Source: Crambe crambe (taxonomy: Eukaryota > Porifera > Demospongiae > Poecilosclerida > Crambeidae). From it: a stretch of 64,000 nt of DNA. Shown in pieces: positions 52,368 through 60,044 of the stretch. A program made the position numbers and the translations under genes. Within the stretch, counting starts at the first letter, position 1. Each line of letters starts with the position of its first letter. The stretch is taken from NCBI GenBank assembly GCA_963924555.1, contig OZ004588.1:5704001-5768000 (forward strand), written 5' to 3'. The notes under the pieces were generated by a model. It saw only the letters and a list, made by a program, of their open reading frames with translations, did not search any database and was not told the origin of the DNA.

Positions 52368-53540
52368 TTATTGTTTGGCAACACTGCCATATCCACCACA
52401 CTCATCAGGGACTAATGGTGCATTCTCGGTTGTGATGTGAGTGAAGTTGTTAGTGTAGGGTACCTGAAAGTAGGTGCTGCTGGGTGGAGATACACGAGTA
52501 GATGCAGGAAATGTGGGTACAGCATGAGTGGAAAAGACTGGATTTTGTTGGAAGTGAACAACACGTTTATTCTTTGTTTTCTGCTTCATACTGAGACAGC
52601 AGGGAAACCTCCGCATCTTTTCACACAAAATAGATTTACAGAGTTTGCCCACTGGATAAAAACAAAGTAGAAATGCTACTGGGAATAGTAGCAGGCTGGT
52701 TGGATATGTGATTGCAATCGAAAGCCAGATGGAAAAATGCTGATAGTTGCTAGTCTTTGCAGTTATCATGCGAATGCTAAGAGCAATCACCACGACAATA
52801 ATATACATCAGAAAGCATATCATAACCACAAAGGTCTTTTTTAGTAGCAACCTTGCTTCATGAAGTGTGACAGGGAGCTGATAGTACACCACAGCAATTG
52901 CAATCATCAAAATTATACTAATGATACCGCCTGACTCGTAAAAGATGTGTCCATGAAAGAGTTGAGCCATCAAGCCAGACAGAGTCAGTTTACAGTTTTC
53001 ATCCAGTGCCCTAATCCAGCACCAGGCACCAGCTAATCCATAGTTATTGGTAAAATATGGTACTGATGCATATGCAAAAGTGAGTACCAATGGTATTACA
53101 ATGTATGAGATTTCTAGCAATATCCTGCGACATCTGGACTGCAGAAACCGTGGGACAGTATTCCCTTTAGCCAAGTATCTAACCAGGAAAAAGAGGTATA
53201 TCATTATTCCTACCGTGAACACAAAAAGAACAATCCCAGTCCAGTTATAGATGAATGCAATCCATGTACAAACTCTTTCTTGTCCTGGATATTTAAAGTG
53301 ATGCTCAATAGAAGCTCCAAGAAAGAGTTCTCTTATAGCTGTAGCAACCATCAAATAGAGGAACAACCTTTGGAGCACACTCTTGTATGCTTTACTGATA
53401 AGTAGAAACAGAATCACAATTAAGGAGACGAAACAACACACTGCTCCAGTTCCACTGAAGGAAAGGTTGATAGTGATCAAGTCATCTGTTGTCAAATTTG
53501 AGCAATTGCTGAAGAATTGAGATCCTCTATGATCATCCAT
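52368..53540 (-). CDS. seven-transmembrane receptor, single exon, 390 residues
   Basis: The start at 53540 gives a short extracellular N-terminus with two N-glycosylation-type sites (NCSN, NLS). Seven hydrophobic segments follow: about residues 30-52, 60-78, 91-118, 140-162, 200-222, 236-260 and 273-298. Cys near 91 (RVCTWIAF) and the Cys of WCWI before the fifth helix are placed like the usual receptor disulfide. The sixth-helix region contains MICFLMYIIVVVIALSIR. The cytoplasmic tail of about 90 residues has KMRRFPCC, a possible palmitoylation site, and ends GYGSVAKQ. There are no introns. The layout suggests a G-protein-coupled receptor outside the rhodopsin class, perhaps related to the cAMP-receptor/secretin-like groups. 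The ligand is unknown. The gene stands alone between the duplicate segment and the 5.8-kb element. Confidence 0.85.
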   Translation of the reverse strand: MDDHRGSQFFSNCSNLTTDDLITINLSFSGTGAVCCFVSLIVILFLLISKAYKSVLQRLFLYLMVATAIRELFLGASIEHHFKYPGQERVCTWIAFIYNWTGIVLFVFTVGIMIYLFFLVRYLAKGNTVPRFLQSRCRRILLEISYIVIPLVLTFAYASVPYFTNNYGLAGAWCWIRALDENCKLTLSGLMAQLFHGHIFYESGGIISIILMIAIAVVYYQLPVTLHEARLLLKKTFVVMICFLMYIIVVVIALSIRMITAKTSNYQHFSIWLSIAITYPTSLLLFPVAFLLCFYPVGKLCKSILCEKMRRFPCCLSMKQKTKNKRVVHFQQNPVFSTHAVPTFPASTRVSPPSSTYFQVPYTNNFTHITTENAPLVPDECGGYGSVAKQ

Positions 53541-53965
53541 CTTTATTGTCTAGCTAGGTAGCTATAAGCTGAAACTTCCTAAAGTGGCCAGGAATTTACT
53601 TGAACTCGATATGATTGATAAATGACTAGCTATATAGTATTGTGGTTAATGTGGGCATTTTTTTTCTATACTATAGCTACACATGCATGACTGTGGCAGT
53701 CTTATTAGGTAGCTAATACCCACTAGCTAGTGATATTTTAATTCCAAACACCTGCAATAACACTTGACTGCTCTTAATTCAGTATAGCTATAGGGTCGGT
53801 CGTGTTATTTCGTTTGAAATTGGGAAATAGGGTAACTAACTTTCTTTTTTTAAACCCTATACATACCAGCTATATAGCTAATAATTGTTTTCCTTCAGCT
53901 AACTATACATAGCTCATGTAGCTATAGCTGTACTAAGTCACCTAATGTAGCTAATGTCTATATAA
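53541..53965. other. receptor 5' flank, no gene recognised
   Basis: AT-rich with tagctatagct repeats. It should include the receptor promoter, but no specific element is recognisable. Confidence 0.4.
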
Positions 53966-54116
53966 GGCCATGGACTGTTAATGATATTCATGTTTCTGGT
54001 CAGGAATTCCCCACAAAACCACGCGGGCGGGCGGTGATTATTATCATTATGTCATTATTACAACCAGAATGAACCATTAAAAAACCCACAATGCTATAAT
54101 ACACAAAACATAAAAT

Positions 54117-57100
54117 TTAGCTTCTTCTTTTCACTGGCTCTTTATTTGCACAGTCAGAACACTGAGGGTAGGACTTCTCTTTCATCACCAGATTCTGGTT
54201 GGAACAACAATAAATGCAAATATTTTCATAAGTTCCAACAGAATAGTATAGCTTTTCAACTGGCTGGTAGCATTGTACGATCCTCATGGCCACACCATCT
54301 CTCAATTTACCTTCCAAATCAAGGTCATCCAATTGGGCTCCACAGGTGTAAGTAAATTCATCAAGCAAGTTCTGGAGGTACTTTCTCTCTGATGGCGTTA
54401 GCTTGAATTTGCTATACACCAGCCGCCACATTTCACATTCCTCACATTGCATCATCAGATTGGCATTCTTCACATGCTGCACACTAGCACTGAATGGAAG
54501 TGACTTTTGTTTTGACTTCTTAGCCTGAAGACTAGGCCTAAACTCTTCACTGGTGGATGTGCCGAATACGTCAAGAAAAGGTTTATAATGTCCTCCTTCT
54601 CCAGGCACTGGATCTGGTAGATGGCACAGAAGATCAAATTTCTCCATAGGCATACGAATAGGCTTGCACATGGTACAAGTAGATCGGCCACACTTCTTTA
54701 CTGTAAAAAAATAATGGCGTGACTTACAGCAGTGAGATAAAAAGTCAACCAATTTCTTATGACTCTCAAGGGATTTCTTGCGATACTGTTCGCCATGCTT
54801 CAAAGTGTTGTCAACACTTTCTAAGACAGACCACATCTCTTCCATGTTGTGATCAGATGCTGCAGAAAAGACTTGAAAGGTCTTGCTATGCAATTCAAGC
54901 CGCTGCAAGATGTCAGAGAGAAGGATCTTGACAGGTGCAATGCTATCCATGATGCCTGGAATCAAATCTGGCATTTTCTCTCCAGCTTGACGTAACTGAG
55001 ACATGTTGTTGCATCTCAAAACTGCAGCCTCGTGTTCTGGACTCATCTGTCCTCGCATCATTCCAACACATTGTAATCCAAGATTTATAATTGACATAAT
55101 CCTCTCTGCTGGATTGCGCCACGAATGGCAAGGTGCAGTCCTTGCTGCACATAAAAAATCGAGGTCTAACTCCAAGAAAATTGCAATGAGGCTTAACTGC
55201 ACCGAAAGGTAGGTAATTCGGTGGTCAGGACCACCATCACTGTAAATAAACAAAAGAGATTTTTCATTTAGAAGGTTTCCATTCCTAAGCACATTACAAA
55301 GTTCAGTAATGTGCCTGTGGGGAGATGAGGGTTCAAAAGTACCTTCTTTCAATCCAACAACAACAGTACCATCATACCATGATTCTGATACGTCATCAGG
55401 TATATCAATTGCAAAAATGACAGAAGGGATCATGTTCAGTTTGGTAAAATCATGATCTCCAACTTCGAACATCTCATTTTTTCGGACAAGCACTCTTCTC
55501 CCTCGTTCAGCAGCTGCAACCGGGTAGTTTGGTTCACCAATTTTAATCTTGTGTTTATCGTCCATACAAATAAATACACTGTGTTCTTTGAACTTGACTG
55601 CATATTCTCTTTGATACCGAAAAATTGCAGCTGCGTAATGGGAATCTTCATGCTCCTTCCTGAATTGGCGTGCTTGAACCATATATTTGACATTGAATCG
55701 TCCGGTGTACTGCAGTCTGCTCTTAGCATGCATGGTTTTTGGCCAAAACTGCAAGCTAAGCCATGAACGGGAAGGTATGGGTGTTGATGGGGGACACCTA
55801 GCTGTGACCTGCTGAAGAAGATCCCGGACAGATAATACCCTGGCAAGATGAGTTACACTGGTATGTCTTCGTTCATCCACTGCTAAGCCAATGTCTTCTT
55901 GAAGGAATTTCTCACACTCAGTCCAGAAGATATCGTACTTCGTACCATGGCCAGTGTTATGGCTTCTCAGATCCATGATGATGTCAGGGTCTTCCAAATC
56001 AACATACATCTTAACCCTCTTGTCTACCTCTTCTTCAGACAGATTTGAGGCTGCTGAAGCATCACCTATGCATGTAACAAGATATACACACATGAAGCAC
56101 TATTAGGCCACTCCTATGCAGACAGGTAACAAGGTGTTGAATAGAAGTCACCCACACTACATGTATGTATACTCACCAGTGAGGGTGCGATAGATGTGTC
56201 TCATGATAGCAGGTTTTACAGAAGAGGTAAGTCTGCCAAACAAAGAAAATACTTCTCTTCTCATTGCCCTTGTATGAAATTTGGGAATGTCTTTCTTAAT
56301 ATTTTCAATCACAGGTTGGCACTGTGAAAAGGATAAGTCTGATATGGATTGAACTTTCCAGACGAAATTGAGATTTCCAACATTGTTCCCATGAGTATAG
56401 GTGAGTAATGCTGTGGGAAACTGAAGACCACTGGATTTAAGTGTTTTGAAGTAGGTGTACTTCTCTTTAGGGTCACTTGGAGAATACTCCTCAACTGAAA
56501 CAGGTACAAGTTCAGGTTGTGATTTTAAGTGGTTGTGAAGCTTTTTGAGTGTCTCTGACACCAACTCACAATGAATTACAGGCAGGAATTGGAACAAAAG
56601 GTGCTCTGATATTTCACGCACTGGAAATGATAAAGATTGGTTGAATATTACCTTCTTGCAACTTCTTTGAAGGTAGCTAGAGTAATCATCAATACTTTTT
56701 GTGAGTTGTTCAATGTCAACTTTGATTCCACTCCAGTAATCACGGCTCCAGTAGGCCCCCTGAAGACACATAAATAGATGAGAAGACAAAGATTTCAGGA
56801 TTTGAGCAGACATGTTTCCTCTCTCACGCTTTCTGTGCTTAGAGAGTTCGGGACAATTGTAACCCATGAATGAACTGAAAGTGCTGGGTATAGAGTAACC
56901 TTGTTTGCCGAAGACATCATGCTGACCATCCACGTACCACAAAGCATTTGTGAGGGCTTGCACAAGACTAACACCACATGAAGCAATTTCTCCACTTCTC
57001 CACTTACAATTTTTGTTGGAAAGAAATTGAATAACATCATTCCATAGTTTTTGTTTGTTGGTTCTACTGGAGATGGTAGACAGTGTCTACAAAGTTCCTT

Positions 57101-57520
57101 TTGAGCTTTCATCATCACTTCAAACGCATTTTTTTTCTAAAAAACAAAATAATTTTCATGATAACAAGCTAGATTCACAGTAGCATATAGTAGATCATGC
57201 CTAGCTAGCTAGCTATATATGCCTACCTCAACAATCACTTCTGGTTCTTCAGTTTCTACTGTAAACCTCACAAAATTCCCAAATACGCTGGAAACATCCG
57301 TAATGGTGAGTGAAGGATCCACCTGATCCAGCATTTCCTTTGCTTTTCCAACGTGGACTTGACTCATCCGGCAACTGTCACTGGCAGGACACTTACACTT
57401 CACCTCAGACTCGAAAAAAGACTGGTAACTGTGTGATGGGGGGTGGACAGAGACTATCTGCCACGGAAGAAGTGTCATCTTGGATGAGCTGCAATACACA
57501 CTGTAGTTCAGCAATGTCAT
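54117..57520 (-). CDS. DDE-transposase-like protein of 1,050 residues, intact three-exon gene
   Basis: Minus-strand exons are 57520-57227, 57086-56177 and 56065-54117. The junctions have GT/AG borders, agree in phase and leave no stop. The N-terminus has CKCPASDSC. The middle (residues 99-401) has NKNCKWRSGEIASCGVSLVQ then ALTNALWYVDGQHD. The third exon has a possible RNase H-like core: FICMDDKHKIKIGEP (Asp570/571), FIYSDGGPDHR (Asp678) and SWRNPAERIMS (Glu722), with Asp678 and Glu722 separated by 43 residues. The C-terminus is Cys-rich: CGRSTCTMCKP, CEECEMW and CIYCCSNQN with CSDC. Family knowledge says such D-D-E spacing catalyses strand transfer; that these residues do so here is inference. 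It fills the left part of the 5.8-kb element and is the only mobile-element gene in the window without a visible lesion. I do not recognise a named superfamily. Confidence 0.85.
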
Positions 57521-57720
57521 GATGAGCGCTGCTAAATCGCAAGTATATGGCTAAATCTTAGATAATTAGACTACGTACACAGGATTGGAAACAATTATTC
57601 GCGCGCGGACCATGCGCGTTGCGCCAAATTATTGCAGCTGTTTACAGTGTGTGGTTTGTTTCTCTAAGTGTGTGGCTTGTTAGTGCTTGTATAGCTGGAG
57701 AAAACCTGATTTACAAGGTA
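57521..57720. promoter_or_regulatory. probable bidirectional promoter of the 5.8-kb element
   Basis: It lies between the minus-strand gene start and the plus-strand companion. It contains a GC-rich core (cgcgcgcggaccatgcgcgt) and one copy of a 37-bp sequence that recurs inverted at 59664-59700. The promoter role is inferred from position. Confidence 0.45.
57557..57593. repeat. 37-bp inverted repeat, inner copy
   Basis: cttagataattagactacgt through acacaggattggaaaca occurs here and, perfectly inverted, at 59664-59700. In the outer copy it lies next to the right arm of the transposon. Confidence 0.95.
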
Positions 57721-58249
57721 AAATTGTGTTGTTATTGGCTAGCCAGTGGTAAGAGACCTAGCTATGATCTAGCTAGCTCTATCAGCTAGCTGGCTACTGC
57801 TAATTTACAGTGCTAGAGACCTAGCTAGCTAGCTATTAACTGAAGCTTACATGACCACTTCATTGAGCTTAATTGCTTTAACTATAGATCCTAGTGGAAT
57901 TATTGTCCAAGTTTTGCAACAAATTGTGAAGACTAAGATGTTCTCTCATCCACACAATATTGCTGTTCGAGAAATTGCTACTGCAGCTCTTGAGTGGTGC
58001 ACAAATCCTTCAAGCTATGAAATGTTGAATTGCTTCTAATAAAATTACTTGACCCTCATCCCTTAGAGAAAATACAACGAATTATGTGGGGGCAGTACCA
58101 TAAAATTAGAACCACCACAGAGTTTCAGAAAATCTGAAAAGACTTTTTTTTGTCAAGCTGGTATAGCAATCACCCCTCCTGTACTAAAAAATTACAGATG
58201 TGTTAGCTATTTGAACGAGTAATTCCTAATAACTGCCCTATTTCAAGTG

Positions 58250-58775
58250 ACCTCAGCTCCGCCTCCCAGCATGATTATGAGTGTGTAATTACTTACGAAG
58301 AGAGTAATGCATTGCGGTATGCAGCAGGGTACATCCCAAGGGCTCTGCACAAGAGATTAAAAAGTTCCTCTCACCCTTGAAAGAAAATTTGATATGTTAT
58401 ATTGATGATTTGTTACTATGATGATGATGAAGAATCAGAGGATTGGATATAGACTTGGTCGATAGGAGATTACTCCACATTTCAAACTCCATGTATAGTT
58501 TCATGGTGGAGATGGAGAAAGAAGTTCAGAATCATTTGATAAAGCCCATTGATAACATTAAGAAAAGTATTAAAGAAGGAATGTACAAAAATAGTCTGAA
58601 ATTTCTGAGGATTGGGATGAAGAGGAGAGCAAGGTGATTGAAATGATAGTGGACCTTTGGATCACCACACGAGGCTTTGCTTTTGCTGGCTCAAAATGGC
58701 AAGTAGCTAAGAAATTGACCCAGAAAACCAAGGGCATAAGGAAGACTACTAAGACCCTCAATAGATTATCATAAA
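58250..58775 (+). pseudogene. decayed companion ORF of the 5.8-kb element
   Basis: Coding-like pieces in shifting plus-strand frames read NALRYAAGYIPRALHKRLKS then SSHPLKENL (about 58305-58390), DDDEESED (about 58420-58442), LLHISNSMYSFMVEMEKEV (about 58465-58525) and VIEMIVDLWITTRGFAFAGS (about 58632-58690). They end with KWQVAKKLTQKTKGIRKTTK (to about 58755). The order and spacing suggest one protein with several frameshifts and stops. An upstream ATG exon may lie at 57851-58037 (MTTSLSLIALTIDPSG). The function is unknown; its place beside a DDE gene suggests an accessory protein of the transposon. Confidence 0.6.
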
Positions 58776-59663
58776 ATTAATTATGTAGGTATTATAATTT
58801 TATAATTATAAAGTTTCTACTGCTGATATACTAGCTTAATTTTGATGATATGGTAACACTAAAGAGTGAACAAACTGCTGTGGAATTTGGGCATTTTGAG
58901 AGTTTCACCAAGGTGAGGTTGGGCTCTTTCAATCTGACCCATTTAGATGGAAGTCTGTCCAGGGTGATTGAAAGATCACTGATACTAGAAGCAGGACTTG
59001 AAGATAATGGCACCTTGAGAATGTTATTACTTCCATGTTTTTTGACACACAGTTTGCTTTTTTTCCTCCTTGGCATAGCTGTAACTAATAAATCAATGTG
59101 GATAAGTTAGCATGTACGTTAGCTATAATTTTGGTCACTGCAGCTTATGGGATTGATGCTATTCCAAACTGCAGCACTAACTTTATCAGTCACCAAAATT
59201 TCATTGCTCATGCAACAGTGCCTTTTGTGTGAAAGAAAGCAAAAATATACACCTCCAAACACAGAAAAAGCCAGAAAGCATCAAAGATTCAGGATAAAAA
59301 CATATATTATGCACACCATTCCGTATGGCAAGCATCACTCAATAACATAAACTTCATTAAAAGGACACAGGAATTATGCCTTTGCAATGAAAGAAGAAAA
59401 AAACTTTATCCGTTGCTAGGGTGATAAAAATCTTCATGGAAAACTATTTTATGAGCAAACTAACTATACTTAAGAAACACATTTCACATCCCTGGAACAT
59501 ACTCTGTAAAGTAGCCCTTTATTTGATGCTAAAACTCACCAGTTTATTCTCCTTTCATGAAAGTATACTCGAGAAACAAGGAATAAATTTCCAATTTTCC
59601 TTCGCGCATAGCAACACGGATCGTCCGCGACGATTTGTATTAGCATAATGGGCGCACGTGAGC
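58776..59663. other. interior of the 5.8-kb element, no gene recognised
   Basis: Several short ORFs occur on both strands (for example 59076-58831 minus and 58850-59110 plus, antisense to each other). None shows a recognisable domain. Confidence 0.4.
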
Positions 59664-59700
59664 TGTTTCCAATCCTGTGTACGTAGTCTAATTATCTAAG
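59664..59700. repeat. 37-bp inverted repeat, outer copy
   Basis: Exact reverse complement of 57557-57593, immediately inside the right arm. Confidence 0.95.
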
Positions 59701-60044
59701 GCTAAATTATGTAATAATGACCATAATGAGATTCTTCAAGCGGAGCCAATTTCCTGCGCGGGCGGGTGACCAGAAACATGAATATCATTAACAGTGGCCT
59801 AAAGATAATTCATTTCAGTTAGCTACCTCTCTAGGGATCATTGTAATAATTGTTACTTAATTCACACTGAAGGCCCCACATGCAGAGTTATTGCAAATGA
59901 AAGGTAAGTTGTTGATCAGGAAATTATATTGGTAAACATGGGTCATTTTGGATCAGTTTCAAACACACCTAAAGAGCTACAAATTTCATGAGCTATAGCT
60001 AGCTATAGCTAAGAATGATAAAATCTAGCTACTGCATGAACTAG

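Follow-up and report, generated by a model that had tools for sequence, protein, structure and literature searches.

A probable Zator/ISAzo13-like DNA transposon of the sponge Crambe crambe, interrupted by a P-type element

Our analysis concerns positions 53966 to 59799 of a 64,000-bp stretch of Crambe crambe DNA (contig OZ004588.1, positions 5,704,001 to 5,768,000, forward strand; the whole stretch is called the window here). A preliminary description had taken this region to be one 5.8-kb, two-gene transposon with an intact DDE-like gene of unrecognised family. Judged from its sequence, it is two DNA transposons, one nested in the other and both of ordinary kinds. We think it quite probable that the outer one, spanning 53966–59799, is a decayed copy of a cut-and-paste transposon of 3.7 kb whose single gene encodes a Zator/ISAzo13-type DDE transposase, and that a 2.14-kb non-autonomous P-type element was later inserted into it. 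The nesting, the ends, the target site duplications, a 7-bp difference in the gene and the existence of a family are directly visible in the DNA. The parts are as follows.

53966..57556, minus strand (gene strand): outer element, left part; 53974–57556 is homologous to C16:5220000-5223693 (99.4%)
57550..57556, no strand: left GCTAAAT, one of the two 7-bp repeats that flank the inner element
57557..59700, no strand: inner element, putatively non-autonomous and P-type, with 37-bp perfect inverted ends, other copies in the genome and an autonomous-type relative (L171)
59701..59799, minus strand: outer element, right part, beginning with the second copy of GCTAAAT (59701–59707)

Two nested elements

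The window region was searched against the 143-Mb genome from which it comes (counts of matches from that search are lower bounds). There are two inverted pairs in it and not one: a perfect pair of 29 bp at 53974–54002 and 59767–59795, and a perfect pair of 37 bp at 57557–57593 and 59664–59700. A second copy of the outer element, 3,694 bp long (C16:5220000-5223693, the C16 copy below), is 99.4% identical to 53974–57556 and 100% identical to 59700–59802, and it lacks the 2.14 kb between them, 57557–59700. In the window this inner part is flanked on both sides by GCTAAAT. We read the region as two elements because the C16 copy is without the insert and because the 7-bp duplication surrounds the inner part. 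The limits 53966 and 59799 stand as first proposed. The 29-bp perfect inverted ends are completed by terminal GGCC, and TAA is indeed present on both sides, at 53963–53965 and 59800–59802. Homology to the C16 copy stops at the element ends, and the flanks vary among copies.

A single 5.8-kb two-gene element, of which the C16 copy would be a deletion derivative, has in its favor that the outer ends do enclose both parts. The inner part, however, has its own 37-bp ends and its own 7-bp duplication, and at least 17 near-full copies of it are present elsewhere in the genome at 97–98% identity; these features rule the single unit out for practical purposes, and we give it almost no credence.

The outer gene and its lesions

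57227..57520, minus strand: exon 1, with a putative ATG at 57520
56177..57136, minus strand: exon 2, from a pyrimidine-rich acceptor; lacks, at about 57059, 7 bp that the C16 copy has
54117..56065, minus strand: exon 3, with the stop codon; D-D-E core and Cys-rich tail
55050..55709, minus strand: catalytic core, the stretch used for the ISAzo13 alignment and for the fold model

The gene of the outer element had been described as an intact three-exon gene, the only functional-looking mobile-element gene in the window. The splicing then proposed does give 1,050 amino acids without a stop, but it uses an acceptor at 57086 that has no pyrimidine tract. A good acceptor, tttgttttttag, lies upstream of it; from there the exon begins at 57136 and the frame reads NAFEVMMKAQKELCRHCLPSPVEP, a stretch that has counterparts in related elements (for example NAFDVLQEGQRRLEAKKLPSHIEP in L023). 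In the C16 copy the frame runs on from NAFEVMMKAQKELCRHCLPSPVEP into RTNKQKLW across 7 bp that are missing from the window copy, and for want of these 7 bp the window frame shifts and closes after 211 amino acids. Since the frame of the relatives supports the longer reading, the window copy most likely carries a 7-bp deletion, although two copies taken alone would formally also allow a 7-bp insertion in C16. The C16 gene has +4, +1 and -1 changes of its own in the exons, so that neither copy looks functional. The acidic triad was correctly located (Asp570/571, Asp678 and Glu722), as was the Cys-rich tail. The supposed companion open frame belongs to the inner element and is not a gene; that element sits 36 bp upstream of the ATG with which the outer gene putatively starts.

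The outer family in the genome

A search of the genome with exon 3 found 79 matching stretches, from which 30 loci were fetched: the window, the C16 copy and 28 others, which encode relatives at 35–61% identity. The longest open frame has 1,000–1,110 codons in 11 of the 30 loci, and some copies have introns. A search for self-inverted ends delimited bounded units of 3.5–3.8 kb with GGCC-starting inverted ends in ten of the 28 relatives, the ten coming from about six subfamilies; in the other 18 it gave no clear pair within the fetched flanks. Flanks could be read for nine of the ten, and all nine have matching 3-bp TWA duplications; the right side of the tenth is cut off. Some 20 bp in from the ends, five of the ten bounded relatives have the motif GTTTCTGGT, and the other five have variants of it. 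Two members, L036 and L037, have both matching ends and open frames; their identity over 3.7 kb is 99.7%, both carry the 1,086-codon open frame, and they differ in 9 of 1,082 codons (nonsynonymous divergence, dN, 0.0012; synonymous divergence, dS, 0.0087). Relatives of the outer transposase were not found in viral contigs or in the prokaryote contigs searched.

The Cys-rich tail presumably binds zinc. In an alignment of 26 family members (A1), seven have matches to zf-CW, all below cut-off (best 4.2e-5) and spanning only 16–40 residues, which we take as a local resemblance. A CW-zinc-finger-like CxxCxxWR motif is seen in the tail, for example at residues 706–729 of the L026 frame, and could read chromatin.

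Ends, target site duplications and MITEs

53963..53965, no strand: left target site duplication, TAA; the 3-bp flanks match, as TWA, in 22 of 24 bounded copies
53966..54002, plus strand: outer left inverted end; GGCC, then four extra bases, then ACTGTTAATGATATTCATGTTTCTGGTCA
59767..59799, minus strand: outer right inverted end
59800..59802, no strand: target site duplication TAA, right; from the same comparison of 24 bounded copies

At the left outer end of the window copy (53966–53977), GGCC is followed by four bases that neither the right end nor the C16 copy has. The end pattern, allowing up to two mismatches, occurs 166 times in the genome, and the same pattern written backward does not occur. 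Pairing of ends was examined among the 100 places listed of these 166. Among them are at least 22 pairs that lie 141–263 bp apart and thus delimit miniature inverted-repeat transposable elements (MITEs), three pairs about 2.5 kb apart, and one pair that is the C16 copy. Both ends were read in 24 copies; the 3-bp flanks match in 22 of them and are TWA every time. Two points count against so regular a picture: the remaining two copies have no matching flank, and the rows L009/L065 and L066/L067 have common flanks and so are not independent.

The three 2.5-kb units with the window's ends (on C1, C3 and C6) had been candidates for autonomous elements, as suggested by a DDE_3 match in one of them; each is instead a MITE into which other sequence has been inserted. 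These three interrupted MITEs (L085, L086 and L087) likewise have matching TWA. The insert in L085 is a unit with the DDE_3 match and an open reading frame of 355 amino acids, and the frames of L087 appear retroelement-like by eye.

Relationship of the transposase

Searches of Pfam, NCBIfam and PDB sequences returned nothing above cut-off for the window protein or for A1, which bears out the preliminary view of a DDE transposon whose gene belongs to a family lacking a Pfam model; its placement, which the preliminary description left open, can be improved upon, as profile comparison suggests a distant relation of the core to ISAzo13. Sixteen Pfam families match the 26 members of A1 at E ≤ 1, and the sole DDE transposase model among them is PF07592 (ISAzo13), whose match (one member, E 0.028) covers the first Asp and the HDF motif. 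NCBIfam gave one IS630 match (E 0.099, in 1 of 26 members).

We gathered ISAzo13 transposases from plasmids and prokaryote genomes (80 loci kept of 569) and compared them with the core profile, which uses 23 of the 26 rows of A1. In hhalign the core scored 41.8 against five ISAzo13 proteins (probability 58%, P 9.8e-5) and 38.8 against 77 of 85 such proteins (probability 51%, P 1.5e-4). Among the controls, 20 column-shuffled decoys scored at most 22.9 (1.5%), reversed profiles gave 0.1–0.3%, and proteins of the same genome gave 0.1–0.2% (three of Tc1/mariner type) and 0.1% (two Harbinger proteins). Because the core profile scores well above all of these, the outer D-D-E core appears to be distantly related to the bacterial ISAzo13 transposases. 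The motifs correspond in pairs, MDDKHKIKIG with SVDTKKKELVG, GDHDF with HDF, SDGG with AD.GG, and NPAER with NKIEH (the outer family given first), and MAFFT brings all three catalytic motifs together to within one residue. By the MAFFT and hhalign alignments the first catalytic residue would be Asp570 and not Asp571. The second Asp and the Glu are 43 residues apart in the window protein and 42 apart in 40 of the 41 ISAzo13 rows of a further alignment (A4), the remaining row falling outside the pattern used. A Tc1/mariner affinity finds no such agreement: none of the 26 members matches DDE_3 at E ≤ 1, and the duplication is TWA as against TA.

The window core (55050–55709) was also modelled, in an alignment with 41 ISAzo13 rows that presupposes the relation. 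In the model (mean predicted local distance difference test score, pLDDT, 57) the elements follow one another as in RNase H; of the triad, the first residue is on strand 1, the second where strand 4 ends and the third in the last helix. The pLDDT is about 72 up to strand 1, 80–82 in helix A, 68 in strand 4 and 73–81 at residues 171–190. Among PDB chains, Foldseek placed the Mos1 transposase at ranks 1, 2, 4 and 5 (best E 2.8e-3); the rest of its list includes RuvC, RNase H1, Argonaute, UvrC and YeaZ chains together with unrelated ones. A single-sequence fold of exon 3 reached a pLDDT of 36. The expected topology around the acidic motifs is thus seen, but only in a low-confidence model.

The ends of the bacterial elements provide a separate comparison. 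An inverted pair was reported in 76 of 85 ISAzo13 loci, and 43 have equal 3-bp flanks. In 29 rows the 18-bp ends differ at no more than two positions. The 3-bp flanks are equal in 22 of these 29; they are TAA or TTA in 12 of the 22, and GGG ends accompany 10 of the 12. Copies compared within genomes have AT-rich 3-bp duplications, TTA and TAA in L098 and L099, and TAA, TAT and ATA in L106–L108. A target preference common to the outer family and part of ISAzo13 is therefore likely on these comparisons.

Several observations weigh against the ISAzo13 connection. The best PF07592 match reaches 13.9 bits against a cut-off of 26.9, and in just one of 26 members; the hhalign probability is just 51–58% for the core and falls to 28% (five proteins) and 18% (77 proteins) for the full-length A1 profile; and the second Asp is one residue off in MAFFT, where hhalign puts SDGG and AD.GG together on the Asp. 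In the model, strands 2 and 3 fall below pLDDT 50, no Foldseek match has E ≤ 0.001, the TM-scores, taken by query length, are about 0.2–0.34 (the top one 0.33–0.34), and a model built with ISAzo13 rows assumes part of what it supports. The end search used a score that favors equal 3-bp flanks, and many of its weak rows are chance; even among the 29 good rows the flanks are unequal in 7, and in 10 of the 22 with equal flanks they are other than TAA or TTA, including a group with GGAGCCGT-like ends.

Placement among eukaryotic superfamilies

The combination of TWA duplications, GG(CC)-starting ends and short MITEs is the signature of PIF/Harbinger elements and their Tourist MITEs, and a diverged PIF/Harbinger transposon would account for the ends and duplications of the outer element. 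The genome does contain true Harbinger genes, DDE_Tnp_4 having 46 matches there. Yet none of the 26 family members matches DDE_Tnp_4 at E ≤ 1, the two Harbinger proteins gave only the control-level hhalign probability noted above, and one long frame fills most of each bounded unit (a second gene was sought only among open frames), all of which makes this origin very improbable. Here TWA duplications and GGCC ends bound elements with another transposase as well as at least 22 MITEs, so these features alone do not identify PIF/Harbinger.

The eukaryotic superfamily Zator is said to resemble ISAzo13, and both to make 3-bp duplications (PMC10045372), and the two are listed as a pair (PMC5718144). 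We call the outer family Zator-like because it has both 3-bp duplications and an ISAzo13-related transposase; it would be a large, poorly modelled lineage that resembles Zator as published. The analysis thus sets beside ISAzo13 and Zator a large family of transposases for which Pfam has no model.

The outer family might instead be an ISAzo13-related superfamily of its own, sister to Zator and not a member of it, an alternative that we regard as a real if lesser possibility. Its frames have 1,000–1,110 codons, its N-terminal part of about 400 residues and its Cys-rich tail match nothing above cut-off, and the genome holds no ISAzo13-type gene above the Pfam cut-off (one weak match was found). 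On the other side, the length of the target site duplication and the catalytic motifs are as in ISAzo13, and it is by such a likeness to ISAzo13 that Zator is characterised (PMC10045372). More speculatively phrased, and held with similar reserve, an undescribed eukaryotic superfamily could have come from ISAzo13, independently of Zator or as its sister, and gained the N-terminal part and a CW-zinc-finger-like tail (possibly a chromatin reader that guides insertion); it would make MITEs that are the same as Tourist/Harbinger ones by ends and duplication, so that some animal TWA/GGCC MITEs would be misfiled.

The inner element

The inner part, 57557–59700, occurs alone elsewhere not only in the near-full copies counted above; there are also split copies and a diverged subfamily. 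Eleven of the 12 copies read have 7-bp duplications, and P elements make target site duplications of 7–8 bp. The inner copy carries no transposase: in eight copies of its own subfamily and in their majority sequence no open frame exceeds 92 amino acids, and in four copies of the diverged subfamily (about 89% identical) the longest are 122–169 amino acids. Its protein remnant leads to an open frame of 342 amino acids at six places in the genome and of 322 at a seventh. The one such locus fetched, L171, is 4,918 bp long and has the ends of the inner element and a 7-bp duplication, and its frames match PF21787 (3e-18) and PF21789 (9.8e-8), which we take to be RNase H domains of P-type transposases. 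Because L171 combines these ends, this duplication and these matches, a non-autonomous P-type transposon is the reading that fits the inner element best. L171 also has a second, reverse open reading frame of 342 amino acids (L171:3749-4774, minus strand) with no Pfam match.

At three places (C1:2816702-2819455, C20:6313521-6316120 and C13:1679752-1682595) an inner-type P element has an outer-type MITE as a neighbor, at a distance of up to about 420 bp, where about 0.02 such neighbors would be expected by chance (a rough estimate from 32 P places and about 83 units in 143 Mb). A composite of MITE and P element is unsupported, as the two spacers compared have no similarity. Beside the nested elements, an open frame at 52368–53549 of the window (minus strand) resembles, by eye, a seven-helix receptor.

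Proposed mechanism and comparison with known systems

In intact members of the outer family a subterminal GTTTCTGGTC-like motif is the most likely binding site of the transposase, and the enzyme would cut beside the terminal GGCC by means of its D-D-E/RNase H active site; insertion would be into TWA, with duplication of the 3 bp. The same enzyme probably also moves the MITEs of about 140–260 bp that have these ends. In the window copy the 2.14-kb P-type element would have inserted later, just upstream of the putative start codon. Copies with open frames and matching ends, such as L036 and L037, make activity testable.

Among known systems, the inner element is like the P element superfamily in its 7-bp duplication and in having a relative with P-type RNase H domains, and differs in that the copy here is without a transposase and the relative has the additional unnamed reverse frame. 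The outer family shares TWA duplication, GGCC-starting ends and short MITEs with PIF/Harbinger and Tourist elements, whereas its transposase has no match to theirs by Pfam or hhalign. It agrees with Zator as published in the 3-bp duplication and the relation to ISAzo13. With ISAzo13 itself (PF07592, called TP36) it shares the D-D-E motifs, a nearly equal Asp–Glu spacing (43 against 42 residues), 3-bp duplications that are often TAA or TTA, and ends that start with GG in many copies. ISAzo13 is prokaryotic, and the outer family differs from it in its length of about 1,000–1,110 codons, its extra N- and C-terminal parts and the introns of some copies.

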